A DNA stretch of 36,212 bases, taken from the NCBI GenBank assembly GCA_902826815.1, contig CADEGF010000062.1, positions 1 through 36,212 on the forward strand, read 5' to 3'. Both the position numbers and the translations under genes were made by a program. How positions within the stretch are numbered: position 1 is the first letter of the stretch; every line of letters starts with the position of its first letter. The notes beneath the pieces were generated by a model. That model ran no database searches. It saw nothing but the letters and a program-made list of their open reading frames with translations, and was not told the DNA's origin. This stretch comes from an uncultured Mycobacteriaceae bacterium (GTDB lineage Bacteria; Actinomycetota; Actinomycetes; Mycobacteriales; Mycobacteriaceae). Shown here piece after piece: positions 28,320 through 36,212 of this stretch.

Positions 28320-29454
28320 CGTCGGCACAGGCCCGCGCGATCGCCAGCGCCTCGTTCGTGGGGATCACCAACACCGTCGTGCGCGATTCGTCCGACGAGA
28401 TCCGGCGGGCCGATTTCTCGGGGCTCTCGTTGCGCCGCTCGTCGACCTCGACGCCGAGGGAGGACAGGCCTGCGAGCGCATCTCGGCGGACCGCCGCATC
28501 ATTCTCCCCGACACCCGCGGTGAACGTGATGACGTCGGTGTTGCCGAGCACCGCCAGGTAGCCGCCGATGTACTTCCGCAGCCGGTGAATGTAGACGTCG
28601 TAGGCCAACTGGGCTGCCGCGTCGCCCGTCGCGATTCTCTTGTGAATGACACGGAAGTCGATCTCGCCGCTGAGGCCGAGAACGCCTGACCGCTCGTTGA
28701 GCATGTCGTCGATGTCCTCGATGTCCATGCCCGCCATGCGTGACAGATACGACATGACGCCGGGGTCGATGTCACCGGACCGCGTGCCCATCACCAGGCC
28801 CTCCAGTGGCGTCAGACCCATTGAGGTATCGAGAGGCTTGCCTGCGGCGATCGCGGCCGCAGACGCCCCGTTGCCGAGGTGCAGCACGATCTGGTTCAAC
28901 GATTCCAGCGGCGTGTCGAGGAACGCCGCGACCTGCTGGCTGACGTACCGGTGGGAGGTGCCGTGAAACCCGTAGCGACGAATATTCCACTGTCGTGCGA
29001 GGTCCCGGTCGATAGCGTATGCCGCAGCCGCGGGCGGCAGGTCGTGGAAGAACGCGGTGTCGAAGACAGCGATGTGCGGCAGGTCCGGCAGGGCGTTGCG
29101 CGCCACTTCGATGCCGAGCACCGCGGGCGGGTTGTGGAGTTCGGCCAGCGGCGCAAGCTCCTTCAACTTCGCAACCAGAGCATCGTCGATCACCGTCGGT
29201 TGGTAGAAATCGGGACCACCGTGCACAACCCGGTGCCCCACCGCGAACAGCCCAAGGCTGTCGAGCGGTTGCCCGGACTCGGCGAGCTGGTCGAACGCGA
29301 CCCGCAGCGCTTCGCCGTGATCGGCGACCGGCCCGTCACCGATCCGCTCGACGATTCCGTCGGCCACCACCGTGCCCGAGTCCGGCTCGACGACAGCGTA
29401 TTTCAGCGACGATGAGCCGGAGTTGATCACCAGCACTGTCGGTGTTGCGGACAT
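28300..29454 (-). CDS. ackA: AckA acetate kinase
   Basis: A 384-residue acetate kinase, which reversibly converts acetyl phosphate plus ADP to acetate plus ATP. Family segments: [11 protein letters not shown] at the N-terminus, GHRVVHGG, the active-site [18 protein letters not shown] and FTAGVGEN near the C-terminus. The ATG at 29454 shares its A with the pta stop (TGATG), so the two genes are translationally coupled. A longer frame upstream lies inside pta and is not used. Confidence 0.97.
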
Positions 29455-31514
29455 CACTGGACCTGCGCCTGGATGACGGTGATCGCCACGGTGTTGACGA
29501 TGTCCTCGATCAGCGCGCCCCGCGACAGGTCGTTGACCGGCTTCTTCAGGCCCTGCAGCACCGGACCGATCGCGATGGCACCCGCGCTGCGCTGCACGGC
29601 CTTGTAGGTGTTGTTGCCCGTGTTGAGGTCGGGGAAGATCAGCACCGTCGCCCTGCCTGCCACCTTCGAATCGGGCATCTTGCTCGCTGCGGTGGTCGGG
29701 TCGACGGCCGCGTCGTACTGGATGGGGCCGTCCACCAGCAGGCCGGGCTCGCGTTCCCGCACCAATTCGGTTGCCGCCCTGACCTTGTCGACATCGGCAC
29801 CGGTTCCCGACGTTCCTGTCGAGTAGGACAGCATCGCCACCCGCGGCTCGATGCTGAACTGCGCGGCGGTGCGGGCCGACGAGATCGCGATGTCGGCGAG
29901 CTCCTCCGACGTCGGGTCCGGCACGATCGCGCAGTCGCCGTAGGCGAGCACCCGATCGGAGAGGCACATCAGGAAGATGCTCGACACGGTGGTGATGCCG
30001 GGCAGGGTCTTGATGATCTCGAACGCGGGCCTGACGGTGTGCGCCGTTGTGTGCATCGCACCCGAGACCATGCCGTCGACCATGTCGTTGTGCACCAGCA
30101 TGGTGCCGAAATACGACACGTCGTGGATGGTCTCCCGCGCCTGCTCGACGGTGACGCCCTTGTGCTTGCGCAGCTCGGCGTACTGCTCGGCGAACTGATC
30201 GCACAGCTCACTGGTGCGCGGGTTGAGTACCTTGGCTTCGGAGAGGTCGACGCCCAGTTCGGCCGAGCGGGCGCGGATCTTCGGCTCGTCACCGAGGATC
30301 GTCAGCTCGGCGACGTTGCGCTGGATCAACCGTCCCGCCGCCTTGAGGATCCGGTCGTCCTCGCCCTCCGGCAGCACGATGCGTTGCCGATCCGCCCGCG
30401 CCCGGTCGAGCAGCTGGTAGGTGAACATCTGGGGAGTGACCACCGTCGGGATCGGGATCGCCAGCTGCGCAAGCAGATCCGCGGTGTCGACGTGGGTGTC
30501 CATCAGTTCGATCGCGGTGTCGATCTTGCGCTGCGATGATGCCGTCACGCGCCCACGGGCCGCCGCGACCCTGCTCGCCGCCTCGAATGTACCGAAGGCG
30601 GTCGCGATGATCGGCAGCCGCTGGTTCAAACCCGACACCAGCTTGGCGATCGCCGGGTGCAGTTCGAGACCACCGTTGAGGATGATGCACGACAGCGACG
30701 GAAAGCCTTCCGCCGCATGTGCGCTGACCACCGCGAGCACGACGTCGGAGCGGTCGCCGGCGGTGATGACCGCGACCCCCTCGGCCAGCCGCTCGAGCAC
30801 GTGCTCGGCGGTCATCCCCGCAACCAGCACGTCCATCACTTCGCGCTTGAGCAGCTCCTGGTCGCCGCTGACCTCCGAGCCGTCGACGGCGCGCATAAGA
30901 TCGCCGACGGCCGGTGCGACCAGTAGCGGTTCTTCTGGAACGACATACGACTTCGGCTCGAAGCCCTTGAGCGCCTCCGCGACGGCGGTCATTTGCGCCG
31001 GGTCGCACCGGTTGGCGACCACGGCGGCGGTGTGGGCGTGTTGACCGGAGATCTCGATCAGGCACAGCTCGACGACCTGGGCCACCTCCGTCGGCGTACG
31101 GTCCCTGGCCTTGACCGCCAGCACCACCGGCGCGCCGAGGTTGGCCGCGATGCGGGCGTTGGTGTCCAGCTCGCTCGGCGCTGTCACGTCGGTGTAGTCG
31201 CTGCCGACGATGACAACGGCGTCGCAACGGTCAGCCACTTCGTGGTAGCGGTCGACGATGTCGGCGATCGCCGCGTCCGGATCGTCGTGCAGCTGCTGAT
31301 AACTCACACCGACGCACTGTTCGTACGGCAGGCCCGCGGTGGTGTGCGCCAGCAGCAGATCGAGGATGTAGTCGCGGTCCTCGCCCAGCCGGGTGATCGG
31401 GCGGAACACCCCGACCCTCGCGACGGTGGCCGCAAGCCGGTGCATGATGCCGAGCGCGATCGTCGACTTGCCGGTATCACCCTCGGGCGAAGCTATGTAG
31501 ATCGCGCTGGGCAC
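29454..31514 (-). CDS. pta: Pta phosphate acetyltransferase
   Basis: A 686-residue multidomain phosphotransacetylase that interconverts acetyl-CoA and acetyl phosphate. Domains: an N-terminal P-loop ATPase-like part ([11 protein letters not shown], residues 8-18), a central DRTGG-type domain, and the C-terminal catalytic PTA domain from about 360, with [36 protein letters not shown] and [21 protein letters not shown]. The GTG at 31514 lies six bases after TACGTT, so the transcript is probably leaderless. In mycobacteria fgd1 lies directly upstream; here two other genes intervene. Confidence 0.96.
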
Positions 31515-31520
31515 GCCGCC

Positions 31521-31529
31521 AACGTATCA
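31521..31529 (-). promoter_or_regulatory. Extended -10 promoter of pta
   Basis: On the minus strand TGATACGTT (31529-31521) is an extended -10 element whose TACGTT ends six bases before the pta GTG. The leading TGA matches the fgd1 stop codon, because this sequence is part of a duplicated fgd1 3' end. Confidence 0.5.
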
Positions 31530-31540
31530 GCCGAGGTTGC
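31526..31540. repeat. Direct repeat copy 1 (duplicated fgd1 3' end)
   Basis: ATCAGCCGAGGTTGC, identical to 36087-36101. On the minus strand it reads as the last codons of fgd1 (Asn-Leu-Gly-stop) although no fgd1 body precedes it. The match extends imperfectly to 19 of 22 bases. It marks the pta-side boundary of the inserted two-gene module. Confidence 0.65.
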
Positions 31541-31630
31541 AGAATCGCACCCGAAGTTTGCCCGTTCTGCGTGGATCGGCCACACCGTGCGGGATCATGA
31601 GGGTCGGCGAACTCTCGGGGAGATCGACGA

Positions 31631-34600
31631 ATGTTGGGTCCGGTGGATAAAGCCGCCGATCGGTGTGGGTCGTGTGGGAACGACCTTCGGGGTAGGGCGC
31701 GCTTCTGCGACCTCTGCGGCGCGCCGGTGGCCTCGAGCCCACCGGCGGTTGAACACAAGCAGGTGACGGTTTTGTTCGCCGACGTCGTCGGATCGATGGA
31801 GCTCGCCGCCGTGCTCGACCCGGAGCGACTCCGCGAGGTGATGAACGAGCTCTTCAATCGGGCAGCCGCCGTGGTGCAGCGGTATCAAGGGACCGTCGAC
31901 AAGTTCACCGGCGACGGCTTGATGGCGCTGTTCGGCGCTCCGGTTGCGCTTGAAGATCATGCCCTCCGCGCTTGCATCTCGGCCTTGGAGATTCAGACGA
32001 CCACCATGAAATTTGCCGGAGAGGTGCTCCGACAGGACGGCGTTGACCTTCGACTACGGGTGGGGCTCAACTCGGGAGAAGTGATCGCCGGTGCGATCGG
32101 GTCAGGACCTGGCCGATACACCGCCGTCGGACACTCCGTTGGCATTGCGCAGCGCATGGAGGCGGCCGCACCAGCGACGGGAGTGTTGTGTTCGCTTTCG
32201 ACCGCAGGGTTGGTCGAGGGTATCGCCCGTCTGGGTGAGGTCGAGGAGGTGGCGGTCAAGGGTGCCGCCGAACCTGCGCGGGCACGACAGCTACTAGGTG
32301 TGGATTCCGACCGAATAGTGCTCGGGCGCAACGAAGGACAGATGCTGGGCCGCGACGGAGAGCTGGGCCGTCTGCAGCGGGTGCTGGAAAGAAGTCGCGG
32401 GTCTTTGGTCGGAATCGTGGGAGGGGCGGGTCTGGGTAAGAGCCGACTGATCGAAGAATTCACGGCAGCCGCGACGGAGACCGGCGCACACACGGCGATC
32501 GCGCGTTGCGAGGCCCACACCACCACGGTTGCATTTCACGCACTCTCACGTCTGCTGCACGCTTTGTTCGGGATAAGAGGCTTAAGTGCGGCCAACGCCC
32601 GCGAACACGCTCTCGTCCAGTGCGCCGACGGCCTCGCGGCAGATGCGGCCGATGCGCGAATTCTGTTCGACGTCATGGGTATCGCCGATCCGCACGCGCC
32701 GGCTCTCGCAGTCAGCGTCGATGGTCGCCGTCGTCGACTAGTGGAGCTGATGTCTCGGGCGGTTGCGGCTCGCTCGGCGCGGACGGTGATCGTCTTGGAG
32801 GATGCCCACTGGATAGATGCGCCTAGCGATGAGGTCCTTGCTGAGTTCGCCGCCACGCTCGGGCCGAACGCTTCCGTTGTCGTCGCGACCTACCGGCCCG
32901 AGTTCGGCGGAAGTTTGCGACATCGCTCGAGTGAAACGATCACGCTGCGACCGCTTACCTCGTCCGTGACCGTGTGCCTGGTCCGGCAGCTCCTCGGCGA
33001 CGATGCATCGCTGAGCCTGCTGTCCGATCGCATCGTGGCTGCGGCAGCCGGCAATCCCTTCTTCGTCGAGGAGATCGTCCGTGATCTGGCCGATCGCGGT
33101 GTGCTGTCGGGCAGTCGAGGCAGCTATCGCGCTGTTTGTGACGTGCCCGAAATCTCCGCTCCGGCGACGGTGCAATCAGTGATTGCTGCGCGCATCGACA
33201 GGCTCGGCGCCGAGACGAAAGCCGCACTGAACACGGCAGCTGTCATCGGCGATCGATTCGACCGGGATCTGTTGCAGGATCTTTTGCCGCGAGACGTGTC
33301 GTCCTGCTTAGCGGAGTTGGTCTCGGCCGAGATGATCGACCAGACCGAATTCGTGCCACGACAGCGGTTCTGCTTCCGTCACCCGTTGGTGCGAACCGTC
33401 GCTTATGAATCGCAACTGAGTTCCGCCCGTGAACATGCCCACAGCAGGCTCGCCGCTGCGCTCGAGGCACGCGATCCCGGCGGTGCCGACCAGAACGCCG
33501 CACTCATTGCTACCCATTGCGAGGCCGCCGGGGAACGGATCACCGCGTATCAGTGGCATATGCGCGCCGCGAACTGGCTTCGGCCCCGCGATCTCGCTGC
33601 CGCGCGTACGGAGTGGCGAAGCGCGCTCCGCGTCGCAGACCAAATGTCAGATGCCCACCGTGATGTGATTGCTTTGCGAATCGCTCCGCGCACCATGTTG
33701 ATCTCCACCGAGTCCTTCGTCGGCAGCGATGCAGACGCCGATGAGCAATACCGCGAATTGCGGACATTGGCCATGCAAGTCGGCGACCTGAGATCGCTCG
33801 CAATCGCGACCGCCGGACGGATCATGTCGTTCACGTTCAACGACAACCGGGTTCCCGACGCCGCTGCGCTCGGAACGGACCTCGAACAGATGATCAGCCG
33901 TCTCGATATCGACGAGGTGCCGGAGATCGAGATCATTCTCATCGGCGTGATCCGCGCGTTCTTCGCGAACTCCCGACTCGACGCGGCGATGACAGCGGTG
34001 GACGCCATCCTCGCACGACCTCAGAAGGAGCCCACGCTCGACTTCGCAGGCGCGCTCACCATCGGAGGTGTGATCGAGTTGTATCGCGGTAACTACGAGC
34101 GTGGCCGACGGTACCTCATCGAGGGCCTTCGACTTGCCCGTGAACTGCCGCCGGTCAGTCACGCAATAGTCCTTTCGTACTGGGGGATACTCGCGGTGAT
34201 GGGCGTGCACATGCCCGGATTCCTGATCGATGAGGCCCGTGAGGCCCTGCGGCGGGCCGAGTCGTTCGGCGATATCTGCGGCGTAATCACCGCTCAATTC
34301 GCCTACGGCGCTGCGTTGTTACGTGCAGACGAAGCGAGACGTGACGAGGCGATCGAGGTTCTGCACGCTGCCCGAGAAAGAATCGCGAAGTACCGGGTCA
34401 TGACGACGAACTTGATGCCCGCGATCAGTGCCGACCTTGCGCTCGATGCAGCACGCCGCGGCCAGCGAGACGAAGCGATAGATGATCTCCGTGCTCTGTT
34501 CACCGTTCACGCAGAGTGCGGTGTACAGGCTGAAGTAGGTTGTGCCGGTGAGGCACTCGTGACGCTTCTCATCGATCGAGCAACTCCCGACGACCTCGCA

Positions 34601-34825
34601 GAGGCGCACTGCATCGTCGACGGATGGCGAGAGCGCCGCCTTGGTATTCCGGCGGCAGACTTGTGGTGGCTGAAATCGCGCGCCCTCTTGGCCGAGGCCG
34701 AGGGCGACTCAACCGGGTACGCCGAGCTGTCGGCGCAGTATCTCGCGCTGTGCCGGAAACTCGATGCTCGTGGGCGTCTAGTCGAGGCATATCGCATGTT
34801 CGCTGCGAGATCGTCGGAGGATTGA
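31631..34825 (+). CDS. Class III cyclase-domain / AAA ATPase / helical-repeat regulator
   Basis: A 1064-residue multidomain signalling protein. An N-terminal zinc ribbon (Cys12, 15, 26, 29) is followed by a class III nucleotide cyclase domain (about 43-225), an AAA/MalT-like ATPase (Walker A GGAGLGKS at 264-271, Walker B LEDAHWID with Asp391) and a long C-terminal TPR-like helical region. No LuxR-type helix-turn-helix is found at the end. The cyclase keeps both metal aspartates (Asp51, Asp95), the adenine-specifying Lys91/Thr164 pair and Arg175, but the transition-state Asn is Gly171 and the usual nearby Asp is His168, so activity is doubtful. GGGAG lies eight bases before the ATG. It is five bases upstream of the glycosyltransferase gene. 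Confidence 0.9.
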   Translation: MLGPVDKAADRCGSCGNDLRGRARFCDLCGAPVASSPPAVEHKQVTVLFADVVGSMELAAVLDPERLREVMNELFNRAAAVVQRYQGTVDKFTGDGLMALFGAPVALEDHALRACISALEIQTTTMKFAGEVLRQDGVDLRLRVGLNSGEVIAGAIGSGPGRYTAVGHSVGIAQRMEAAAPATGVLCSLSTAGLVEGIARLGEVEEVAVKGAAEPARARQLLGVDSDRIVLGRNEGQMLGRDGELGRLQRVLERSRGSLVGIVGGAGLGKSRLIEEFTAAATETGAHTAIARCEAHTTTVAFHALSRLLHALFGIRGLSAANAREHALVQCADGLAADAADARILFDVMGIADPHAPALAVSVDGRRRRLVELMSRAVAARSARTVIVLEDAHWIDAPSDEVLAEFAATLGPNASVVVATYRPEFGGSLRHRSSETITLRPLTSSVTVCLVRQLLGDDASLSLLSDRIVAAAAGNPFFVEEIVRDLADRGVLSGSRGSYRAVCDVPEISAPATVQSVIAARIDRLGAETKAALNTAAVIGDRFDRDLLQDLLPRDVSSCLAELVSAEMIDQTEFVPRQRFCFRHPLVRTVAYESQLSSAREHAHSRLAAALEARDPGGADQNAALIATHCEAAGERITAYQWHMRAANWLRPRDLAAARTEWRSALRVADQMSDAHRDVIALRIAPRTMLISTESFVGSDADADEQYRELRTLAMQVGDLRSLAIATAGRIMSFTFNDNRVPDAAALGTDLEQMISRLDIDEVPEIEIILIGVIRAFFANSRLDAAMTAVDAILARPQKEPTLDFAGALTIGGVIELYRGNYERGRRYLIEGLRLARELPPVSHAIVLSYWGILAVMGVHMPGFLIDEAREALRRAESFGDICGVITAQFAYGAALLRADEARRDEAIEVLHAARERIAKYRVMTTNLMPAISADLALDAARRGQRDEAIDDLRALFTVHAECGVQAEVGCAGEALVTLLIDRATPDDLAEAHCIVDGWRERRLGIPAADLWWLKSRALLAEAEGDSTGYAELSAQYLALCRKLDARGRLVEAYRMFAARSSED

Positions 34826-34830
34826 CTCGC

Positions 34831-36069
34831 ATGTCGCGGATACTGGCTTATACCTCACCTGCGCTCGGCCATTTGCTGCCTATGAGCGCACTGTTGTTGG
34901 AACTCGCCAGCCGCGGCCACACCATTCACCTGCGTACCTTCACCCCCGGCTTGACGATCGGACAGCGGCTTGGATTCAGCACTGACGCAATCGACTCCAG
35001 GATCGAGGCCATCGAACACGATGACTGGAAAGCGAAGAGCCCGCCTGCTGCGCTGAAGCGTGCTTTCGATGTGTTCGGGCACCGGGCGCAGCTGGAGGTC
35101 AACGATCTGGCTGACGCCATCGAGAGGGTACAGCCCGACGGCCTGCTCATCGACATGATGTGCTGGGGCGCATTGTCGGCCGCTGAGGCCGGCAGTATCC
35201 CGTGGGCGGCCTTCGCCCCGACCACGCCACTGTTGCGCGCTGATGGGATGCCACCCTACGGACCCGGCCTCAAGCCGTTGCCGGTTCTGCCTGGGCGTGT
35301 GCGTGACGCGGTAGTGCGGAAGATCGTGAGCCGTCCAGTCAACAGTGCGTTGCCGCCCATCAACAGGACTCGGGATGCATTACGTCTGCCGCGAGTCGGT
35401 TCGCTCGACGGGTTTTTCCGTCAGGCACCGCTGATGCTTGTTGCTAGCGCCAAGCCCTTCGAGTATCCGAACACTGACTGGGGCGCCGCGGTGGAGATGA
35501 TCGGACCGTGCGCGCTAGATCCTGAGTCCGAGGTAGAAGCGAACTCGCTTGCTGAGATCGACCGGCCCATCGTGCTTGTCACGACATCTTCGGAGAAGCA
35601 GGACGACGAAGCTCTCGTGCGGACCGCAATAGAAGCACTGGCGGACGAACCCGTGCATGTCGTAGCGACGATTCCTGCCGGACGCGCAAACGACATCAGG
35701 GTGACCCCCAATTCGACTGTATTCAAATTGCTTCCACACGGTGAGGTGTTGGACCGTGCGGTGTGTGCGGTGACGCACGGTGGTATGGGCGCCACGCAGA
35801 AGGCCTTGGCGCACGGCGTTCCCGTCTGCGTCGTGCCGTTCGGACGCGATCAGTTCGAGGTCGCCCGACGCGTCGAGATTGCTGAATGCGGTACCCGTCT
35901 TCCAGCCAAGAAGCTCTCACCACAGCGGTTGCGTAGACACGTGCACAAAGCAATGGCCATGACCGATGGCGCGAAGCGGGTGGCGGCCGGATTTGCCGCC
36001 ACCGGTGGGACGTCTCGCGGCGCCGAAATTTTCGAGCAGCAGGTCCTACACGCCGCCGGCGGCGGTTGA
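34831..36069 (+). CDS. Family 1 glycosyltransferase (MGT/UGT-like)
   Basis: A 412-residue GT-B fold glycosyltransferase of the UDP-glucuronosyl/MGT type. The N-terminal acceptor domain starts ILAYTSPALGHLLPMSALLL, with the usual G-H-x-x-P pattern. The C-terminal donor domain has the HGGMGATQKALAHGVPVCVV motif (His316) and FGRDQFEVARRV. It probably attaches a sugar to a lipid or small molecule in the cytoplasm; the acceptor is unknown. I start at the ATG at 34831, ten bases after GGAGG; a longer frame within the previous gene is rejected. It is co-transcribed with the cyclase/ATPase gene and ends 18 bases before the convergent fgd1 stop. Confidence 0.9.
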   Translation: MSRILAYTSPALGHLLPMSALLLELASRGHTIHLRTFTPGLTIGQRLGFSTDAIDSRIEAIEHDDWKAKSPPAALKRAFDVFGHRAQLEVNDLADAIERVQPDGLLIDMMCWGALSAAEAGSIPWAAFAPTTPLLRADGMPPYGPGLKPLPVLPGRVRDAVVRKIVSRPVNSALPPINRTRDALRLPRVGSLDGFFRQAPLMLVASAKPFEYPNTDWGAAVEMIGPCALDPESEVEANSLAEIDRPIVLVTTSSEKQDDEALVRTAIEALADEPVHVVATIPAGRANDIRVTPNSTVFKLLPHGEVLDRAVCAVTHGGMGATQKALAHGVPVCVVPFGRDQFEVARRVEIAECGTRLPAKKLSPQRLRRHVHKAMAMTDGAKRVAAGFAATGGTSRGAEIFEQQVLHAAGGG

Positions 36070-36086
36070 CATCCGTCTGCGGTGTA

Positions 36087-36101
36087 ATCAGCCGAGGTTG
36101 C
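36087..36101. repeat. Direct repeat copy 2 (native fgd1 3' end)
   Basis: ATCAGCCGAGGTTGC, identical to 31526-31540. Here it is the genuine end of the fgd1 reading frame plus one base. Together the two copies bracket the cyclase-glycosyltransferase module. Confidence 0.65.
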
Positions 36102-36212
36102 GCAGTCGGGGCTCCAGATCGGTCTTGAACAGCTCGAGGAACCGCCGCTGGTCATGGCGGGGGTCGTGGAACACCAGGTGGTTCAGGCCCCAGTCCACGT
36201 AGTCCTTGACCT
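36088..36212 (-). CDS. fgd1: Fgd1, F420-dependent glucose-6-phosphate dehydrogenase (3' part only)
   Basis: The C-terminal 40 residues of a minus-strand gene cut by the window edge. The visible residues include [17 protein letters not shown] and [20 protein letters not shown] before a TGA stop, which fits the end of Fgd1, a luciferase-like enzyme that oxidises glucose 6-phosphate with coenzyme F420. Gene order (fgd1, then pta and ackA on the same strand) supports this. A close LLM-family F420 enzyme cannot be excluded from so short a piece. Confidence 0.85.

Follow-up and report, generated by a model that had tools for sequence, protein, structure and literature searches.

Genomic islands can enter the 3' ends of genes, tRNA genes among them, and restore those ends. 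The stretch considered here, a 36,212-bp contig from an uncultured Mycobacteriaceae bacterium (the window; one whole contig, C62, of the draft genome), recalls that behavior: a cyclase gene and a glycosyltransferase gene (the module) lie between the core genes fgd1 and pta, bracketed by two copies of the fgd1 3' end. The locus is like such islands in its direct repeat at a gene end and in the keeping of that end, and unlike them in that no recombinase is present, the same repeat does not recur and the module lies elsewhere without repeats.

Three further systems offer parallels. Homology-facilitated illegitimate recombination, described for Streptococcus pneumoniae, Acinetobacter baylyi, Pseudomonas stutzeri and Escherichia coli (PMC3240628), likewise gains foreign DNA with one end anchored by homology, here presumably in fgd1, and the other joined without it; our locus differs in showing no matching deletion and in being read from a scar rather than from an experiment. 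As in the displacement of type VI secretion system effector-immunity genes in Vibrio cholerae (PMC5361080), a conserved region would serve as the anchor and a displaced 3' piece is pushed downstream as an orphan, but the orphan is an immunity gene there and a 15-bp scrap here. Gene-turnover hotspots that contain no mobile elements, described by Oliveira et al. 2017 (PMC5635113), also hold variable cargo between conserved genes, with no integrase detected, in our case among the cargo scanned; they were defined by within-species statistics, whereas ours is a single site compared between species of one genus, without that statistical test. Ordinary DNA recombination explains the insertion better than a mobile element does.

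Two genes inserted between fgd1 and pta

The fgd1-pta order is ancestral near the window's genome, and the two genes of the module are an insertion between them, as a sequence-only reading of this DNA had proposed. The junction is empty in each of the six genomes ranking highest in pta DNA similarity among those listed (G143, G375, G170, G370, G372 and G269), and therefore the 4,546-bp insert came between fgd1 and pta. Its arrival left the old fgd1 end stranded before pta. The opposite picture, a module ancestrally present without the repeat, is not what these relatives display, since none of the six has the module at the junction. G162 is empty too, and in all seven genomes fgd1 lies within ~50 bp of pta; G089, the next in pta DNA similarity among the matches listed, holds 930 bp of other cargo. 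In G143, whose Pta is 92% identical and whose Fgd1 protein matches NCBIfam TIGR03554, the pta spacer directly follows the fgd1 stop, CACGCCGCCAACGT adjoining ATCAGCCGAG. To the left of the insert, the window and G143 are identical up to and including base ten of the repeat (...CGCCAACGTATCAGCCGAG) and diverge beyond it, and no target sequence between pta and the fgd1 stop was deleted relative to G143. The features concerned are as follows.

29454-31514, minus strand: pta, phosphate acetyltransferase, the left flanking core gene (Pfam PTA_PTB 2e-134, DRTGG, AAA_26)
31526-31540, plus strand: left 15-bp copy, exact repeat; the former fgd1 end, reading Asn-Leu-Gly-stop on the minus strand
31541-36086, no strand assigned: insert between the repeats, 4,546 bp, missing from the relatives' empty sites; GC 63.4% against 67.0% in the window leftward
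31631-34825, plus strand: 1064-aa protein (Pfam Guanylate_cyc 2.8e-23, AAA_16 7.2e-19; cyclase matches in the PDB)
34831-36069, plus strand: 412-aa glycosyltransferase of MGT/EryCIII type (Pfam EryCIII-like_C 3.5e-15, UDPGT)
36087-36101, plus strand: right 15-bp copy, exact repeat; belongs to the 3' end of the live fgd1 and continues its C-terminal reading frame
36088-36212, minus strand: fgd1 3' end, 79% identical to residues 297-335 of G143 Fgd1; its last 55 bp equal the end of contig C118

The wider comparison of occupied and empty sites covered 110 other genomes of the genus, a non-random sample picked mainly by pta similarity. Judging by these same-genus relatives, the window probably comes from a Mycobacterium in the broad sense; one of them, G013, matches a named M. 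hubeiense record in its fgd1 tail and pta start. Thirty-eight junctions were empty (gap <150 bp), 53 were occupied (gaps of 417 to 11,298 bp) and 19 had no fgd1 in the fetched stretch. The genomes were sampled in batches of 40 (6 empty, 25 occupied, 9 with fgd1 outside the stretch), 10 (7, 2 and 1), 40 (12, 22 and 6) and 20 (13, 4 and 3).

The repeat ATCAGCCGAGGTTGC bounds the module at both ends, and these are its sole two exact copies in the 6,871,345-base draft genome. The sequence-only reading had taken the right copy for the true fgd1 end and the copy before pta for the ancestral one, and both assignments hold: the former is in frame with the fgd1 C-terminus, and the latter, 11 bp from the pta start codon (31512-31514), agrees with the empty sites of relatives. 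Its Asn-Leu-Gly-stop on the minus strand was confirmed, and the imperfect similarity reported out to 22 bases measures 18/22 between the two fgd1 ends. The length of the repeat alone is within chance, as the GC-rich window contains 14 repeated 15-mers including ATCAGCCGAGGTTGC, several of them overlapping neighbors. Its position is beyond chance: among 20,000 strings of 116 bp generated by a Markov model, the best match to ATCAGCCGAGGTTGC was at most 13/15, against 15/15 observed. We judge the repeat meaningful because of this position near pta together with the empty site in relatives. The Asn-Leu-Gly ending occurs in one of 56 fgd1 tails, the window's own, the Asn codon being rare there (this set disregards G170, which is out of register, as does the 66-bp comparison of native copies below).

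The 1064-aa protein combines an N-terminal CxxC zinc-ribbon-like motif (recognized by eye), a class III cyclase, an AAA ATPase and a long C-terminal part; the 412-aa glycosyltransferase matches NCBIfam MGT at 1.3e-35, under the family cut-off. Their genes occupy 31631-36069 and leave only ~110 bp of the insert outside them. As had been noted from the sequence, no integrase is present: the Pfam domains of the two proteins are confined to cyclase/AAA and glycosyltransferase types, with no integrase or recombinase among them, and there is no space for another gene. Signs of a transposon are equally absent from the insert, which has no transposase domain and whose longest exact inverted match between the 50-bp ends is 5 bp. 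The window contains no tRNA, and positions 30900-36212 have no Rfam match.

The composition of the insert sets it apart, and the lower GC claimed from hand-counted samples was borne out in sliding windows. At 63.4% the insert falls below the minimum (64.9%; mean 67.1%) of 135 overlapping 4,546-bp windows elsewhere in the contig, and GC at third codon positions (GC3) is 0.71 in both insert genes versus 0.89 in pta. At 47 other loci the difference between module and flank GC averages -0.002 (sd 0.028), compared with -0.040 in the window; the module equals its flanks there, and low GC is therefore no property of the family.

A proposed entry through fgd1 and the stranded gene end

We favor, at a probability of about 0.5, entry of the pair into the fgd1-pta hotspot by homology-anchored, one-sided illegitimate recombination. 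From the insertion, the empty sites, the stranded fgd1 end and the variable cargo we infer a donor and the following steps. Incoming linear DNA would have carried fgd1 with the pair downstream and recombined homologously inside the resident fgd1, so that the live fgd1 end would be the donor's. At the other donor end, a join needing hardly any homology or none would have formed beside pta, a few bases into the end of the resident fgd1; the last bases of the old fgd1 would then have stayed before pta, with the pta start region intact, and no integrase would be required. Such recombination through fgd1 would account for the stranded end, the missing integrase, a second stranded end in G290 and a diverged fgd1 tail.

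The divergence of the tail was gauged over 120 bp. The window is 79.2% identical to G375, 77.5% to G143 and 81.7%, after padding, to G170, while 12 other pairs at the same pta distance, partly related and not all independent, average 88.9% (sd 3.0, minimum 84.2%). The window's fgd1 tail thus appears more diverged than its pta distance would predict. The low GC3 of the insert also counts for recombination with foreign DNA, and a donor-like arrangement exists: in two other species, G251 (L143) and G041 (L102), the pair is oriented tail to tail to fgd1, and neither has a stranded end.

At every occupied junction we looked for another copy of the fgd1 end of that same junction. Two of the 54 occupied whole-genome junctions, the window included, have a stranded end, namely the window and G290, and none was found in 15 further named-locus junctions (four from Mycobacterium/Mycolicibacterium, some of them from species counted above; the rest from other genera). 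In G290 (L149) the stop codon of the live fgd1 is TAG, and a small gene comes next; ~540-575 bp past fgd1, 34 bp of the gene's end recur at 97% identity (E 2.8e-11) and run into TGA. G295 (L261) has both sides of the G290 junction but lacks the piece bearing the stranded copy. The exactly duplicated blocks are the last 14 fgd1 bases plus one in the window and bases -36 to -8 in G290, and they overlap by seven bases. Because the live and stranded stop codons of G290 are unequal, replacement by a donor end fits that case, and a simple target duplication fits it less well.

At nine other loci (L004, L094, L105, L119, L244, L267, L268, L270 and L275) 12-15 bp of the gap exactly match a part of the final 60 bp of fgd1; these matches were taken as chance, being ~0.8 kb or more from pta and without a stop codon; that of L244 (G132) spans bases -18 to -5 of the fgd1 end. 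A left-junction pattern allowing three mismatches matched in 163 of 396 genomes, mostly at places unrelated to the junction, and was left unused. As a side observation, the G290 copy sits between a small DUF732-like gene (named by eye) and a DUF222-type gene.

Several points weigh against homology-anchored entry. Identity between the two 15-bp copies extends to the rare Asn codon and is better explained by a straight duplication. Events of this kind are described as coming with deletions of about the insert size and with 3-10 bp of micro-homology (PMC3240628); no deletion lies beside our insert relative to G143. The tail of contig C118, which bears a second fgd1 end of the same draft genome, is about as diverged as the window's (80.8% to G375, 78.3% to G143 and 80.8% to G170), and conversion between fgd1 copies could have caused the anomaly. 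Over the last 66 bp the anomaly is weaker (0.818, 0.788 and 0.864 versus 0.883, sd 0.038). No donor was found, and the nearest modules in the tree (G340 and G269) lie away from fgd1 and are at most 68% identical.

The main rival, and a serious one, is a 15-bp target-site duplication by break repair: the native fgd1 would have suffered a staggered break at its end, filled in while a pair-bearing fragment was captured, for example by Ku/LigD end joining, leaving a 15-bp direct repeat and a live fgd1 that is native. We rate it as less likely than homology-anchored entry. The identity of the copies with their common Asn codon is what it predicts, both outer flanks fit one empty site, and in Streptomyces insertion of the organism's own DNA, 30 bp to 18.8 kb long, is reported at healed breaks (PMC5869714). 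Fill-in in that work amounts to 1-4 nt, compared with 15 here; the G290 case is unlike such a duplication in length and stop codon; and the fgd1 tail seems too diverged for a native gene, unless it was converted by the second copy.

Should homology-anchored entry be correct, one-sided recombination can leave its record in the ends of mycobacterial core genes, and this would be of use in asking how mycobacteria acquire gene pairs without a recognizable mobile element. A stranded fgd1 end is a readable scar from which the direction and the anchor of an acquisition may be worked out.

The junction and the module across the genus

The fgd1-pta junction is a turnover hotspot in which the same core flanks enclose diverse accessory genes, and it is hereby marked as a site of gene turnover in the genus; among the matches listed, the literature on fgd1 with pta holds no apparent account of it. 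Whether relatives carry different cargo here had been raised by the sequence-only reading, and they do: the cargo of 53 occupied junctions (whole-genome loci apart from four named ones) falls into 37 clusters, a clustering that leaves out the four occupied junctions of the last 20-genome batch and the 19 junctions without fgd1. The commonest cargo is an endonuclease/exonuclease/phosphatase-family gene (24 junctions), an amino-acid permease (15), a class III aminotransferase (14) and a GntR regulator (11), with glycosyltransferase clusters also among the commonest. Pfam scans of 30 of the 37 cluster representatives matched 22 to a family and 8 to none. A DUF222 gene, which we take to be of the 13E12 type, is present at two junctions. 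Apart from cargo, a GC-rich motif, CTTCGCGCGAGCGCTCAT, recurs beside the pta start in L005, L006, L107, L110 and L112 and is perhaps a dispersed repeat.

The module itself is found well beyond this junction. We examined 53 loci chosen for matching it, which occupy several unrelated contexts, and most have the cyclase gene followed by the glycosyltransferase gene; the exceptions are four without a glycosyltransferase match in the stretch, one without a cyclase match and L204, with fragments only. In the cyclase, residues 167-177 (window 32129-32161) read VG-AQR in module proteins versus VNLASR and VNLTYR in two solved cyclases. The Asn, a residue that matters for catalysis, is replaced by Gly in each of the four module proteins aligned, whereas two Asp and the Arg are retained. 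The module cyclase may be a sensor whose cyclase activity is changed or absent.

If integration at the fgd1 3' end were site-specific, the 15 bp would be an attachment core, and an integrase, either supplied in trans or later lost, would have restored the gene end. The gene-end position, the identical direct repeats at both borders, one of them completing fgd1, and the seven-base overlap between the blocks duplicated in the window and in G290 speak for it, and the sequence-only reading had drawn this very comparison with elements that restore tRNA genes. That comparison is not supported. Besides the insert having no integrase and so little sequence outside its two genes, none of 12 other module loci has flanking direct repeats above the largest of 100 shuffles (L154 equals it, at 12 bp), a result on which a general attachment-site origin of the module was rejected as well. 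Many junctions of the genus carry unrelated ordinary cargo, and no integrase or transposase appears in the 30 cargo representatives scanned, 8 of which lack any family match. The stranded end is confined to two of the 54 occupied junctions, window included; G251 and G041 have the pair at fgd1 without one, and that of G290 differs in length and stop codon. We therefore regard site-specific integration as unlikely. A related idea, that the fgd1 3' end is a target for integrase-less cassettes moved in trans, draws on the window and G290, with their unrelated cargo and an overlap near the stop; in both, incoming DNA would have taken the place of the fgd1 end and stranded its predecessor. In our estimate this is a slim prospect.

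A tree of 46 modules places the window's module with those of G340 and G269 (support 100), which lie at other loci, and unites the fgd1-adjacent modules of G251 and G041 (support 91), G041 having a long branch. Since the window's module stands apart from these two, the pair probably reached fgd1 at least twice, although a single origin is not strictly excluded by the tree test. With the same reservation, this topology speaks against the idea that the module was ancestral at the junction and was precisely lost in relatives. The presence of the pair at fgd1 in G251 and G041 favors that idea; it would need repeated clean losses and would leave the stranded fgd1 end unexplained, and we find it very improbable. 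Relocation from the G269 module site was also considered and dropped, as its flanks match draft contigs C45, C1 and C39 on one side and C9 and C66 on the other, which shows no simple move.

A second fgd1 copy and the right flank

The right end of the window falls inside fgd1, and the draft genome has no complete fgd1, only two 3' ends (C62 and C118) and two 5' ends (C43 and C83). The last 55 bases of C62 (window 36158-36212) and C118 (L169 7558-7612) are common to both, and C43 (L173 end) and C83 (L172 1-75) likewise share their first 55, so that exactly 55 bases are shared on either side of the missing middle of the gene. Such shared contig ends point to a two-copy gene collapsed in short-read assembly; a second fgd1 copy would have broken the assembly at the window end and makes the joins of the right flank ambiguous. 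C43, on which an MBL-hydrolase gene lies, holds the neighbors that follow fgd1 in G143. Joining C43-fgd1-C62 and C83-fgd1-C118 is the simplest solution, though unproven. Across the final 66 bp, G375 and G143 agree with the C118 tail at 57/66 and 54/66 and with the window tail at 54/66 and 52/66, and either C62 or C118 may bear the native copy.

These ambiguous joins, together with the two fgd1 copies and the C118 tail being nearer to G375 and G143 over those 66 bp, lend something to another explanation, in which the window's fgd1 is the second copy, part of a long insert (C83 and C118) that parts pta from the native fgd1 on C43, and the 4.5-kb insert is only the edge of that island. We consider it doubtful. 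From ~9.7 to 12 kb, C83 matches G143 at 82% on contig C34 and not on C9, the contig with fgd1-pta; this suggests an island at another place, bordered by C83 and C118.

The genes of C118 include those for asparaginase, polysaccharide deacetylase, MFS and SDR proteins and resemble a Rhodococcus plasmid, and of eight relatives seven have only short matches to it (≤276 bp) and one has none. The OsmC-like flank of the second fgd1 occurs in three other genomes, with no fgd1 in their fetched loci. The far end of C118 (L169 1-61) has 94-98% matches to short sequences, in more than one place in some relatives, and reads by eye like the N-terminus of a transposase; an insertion sequence may thus border the region of the second fgd1.

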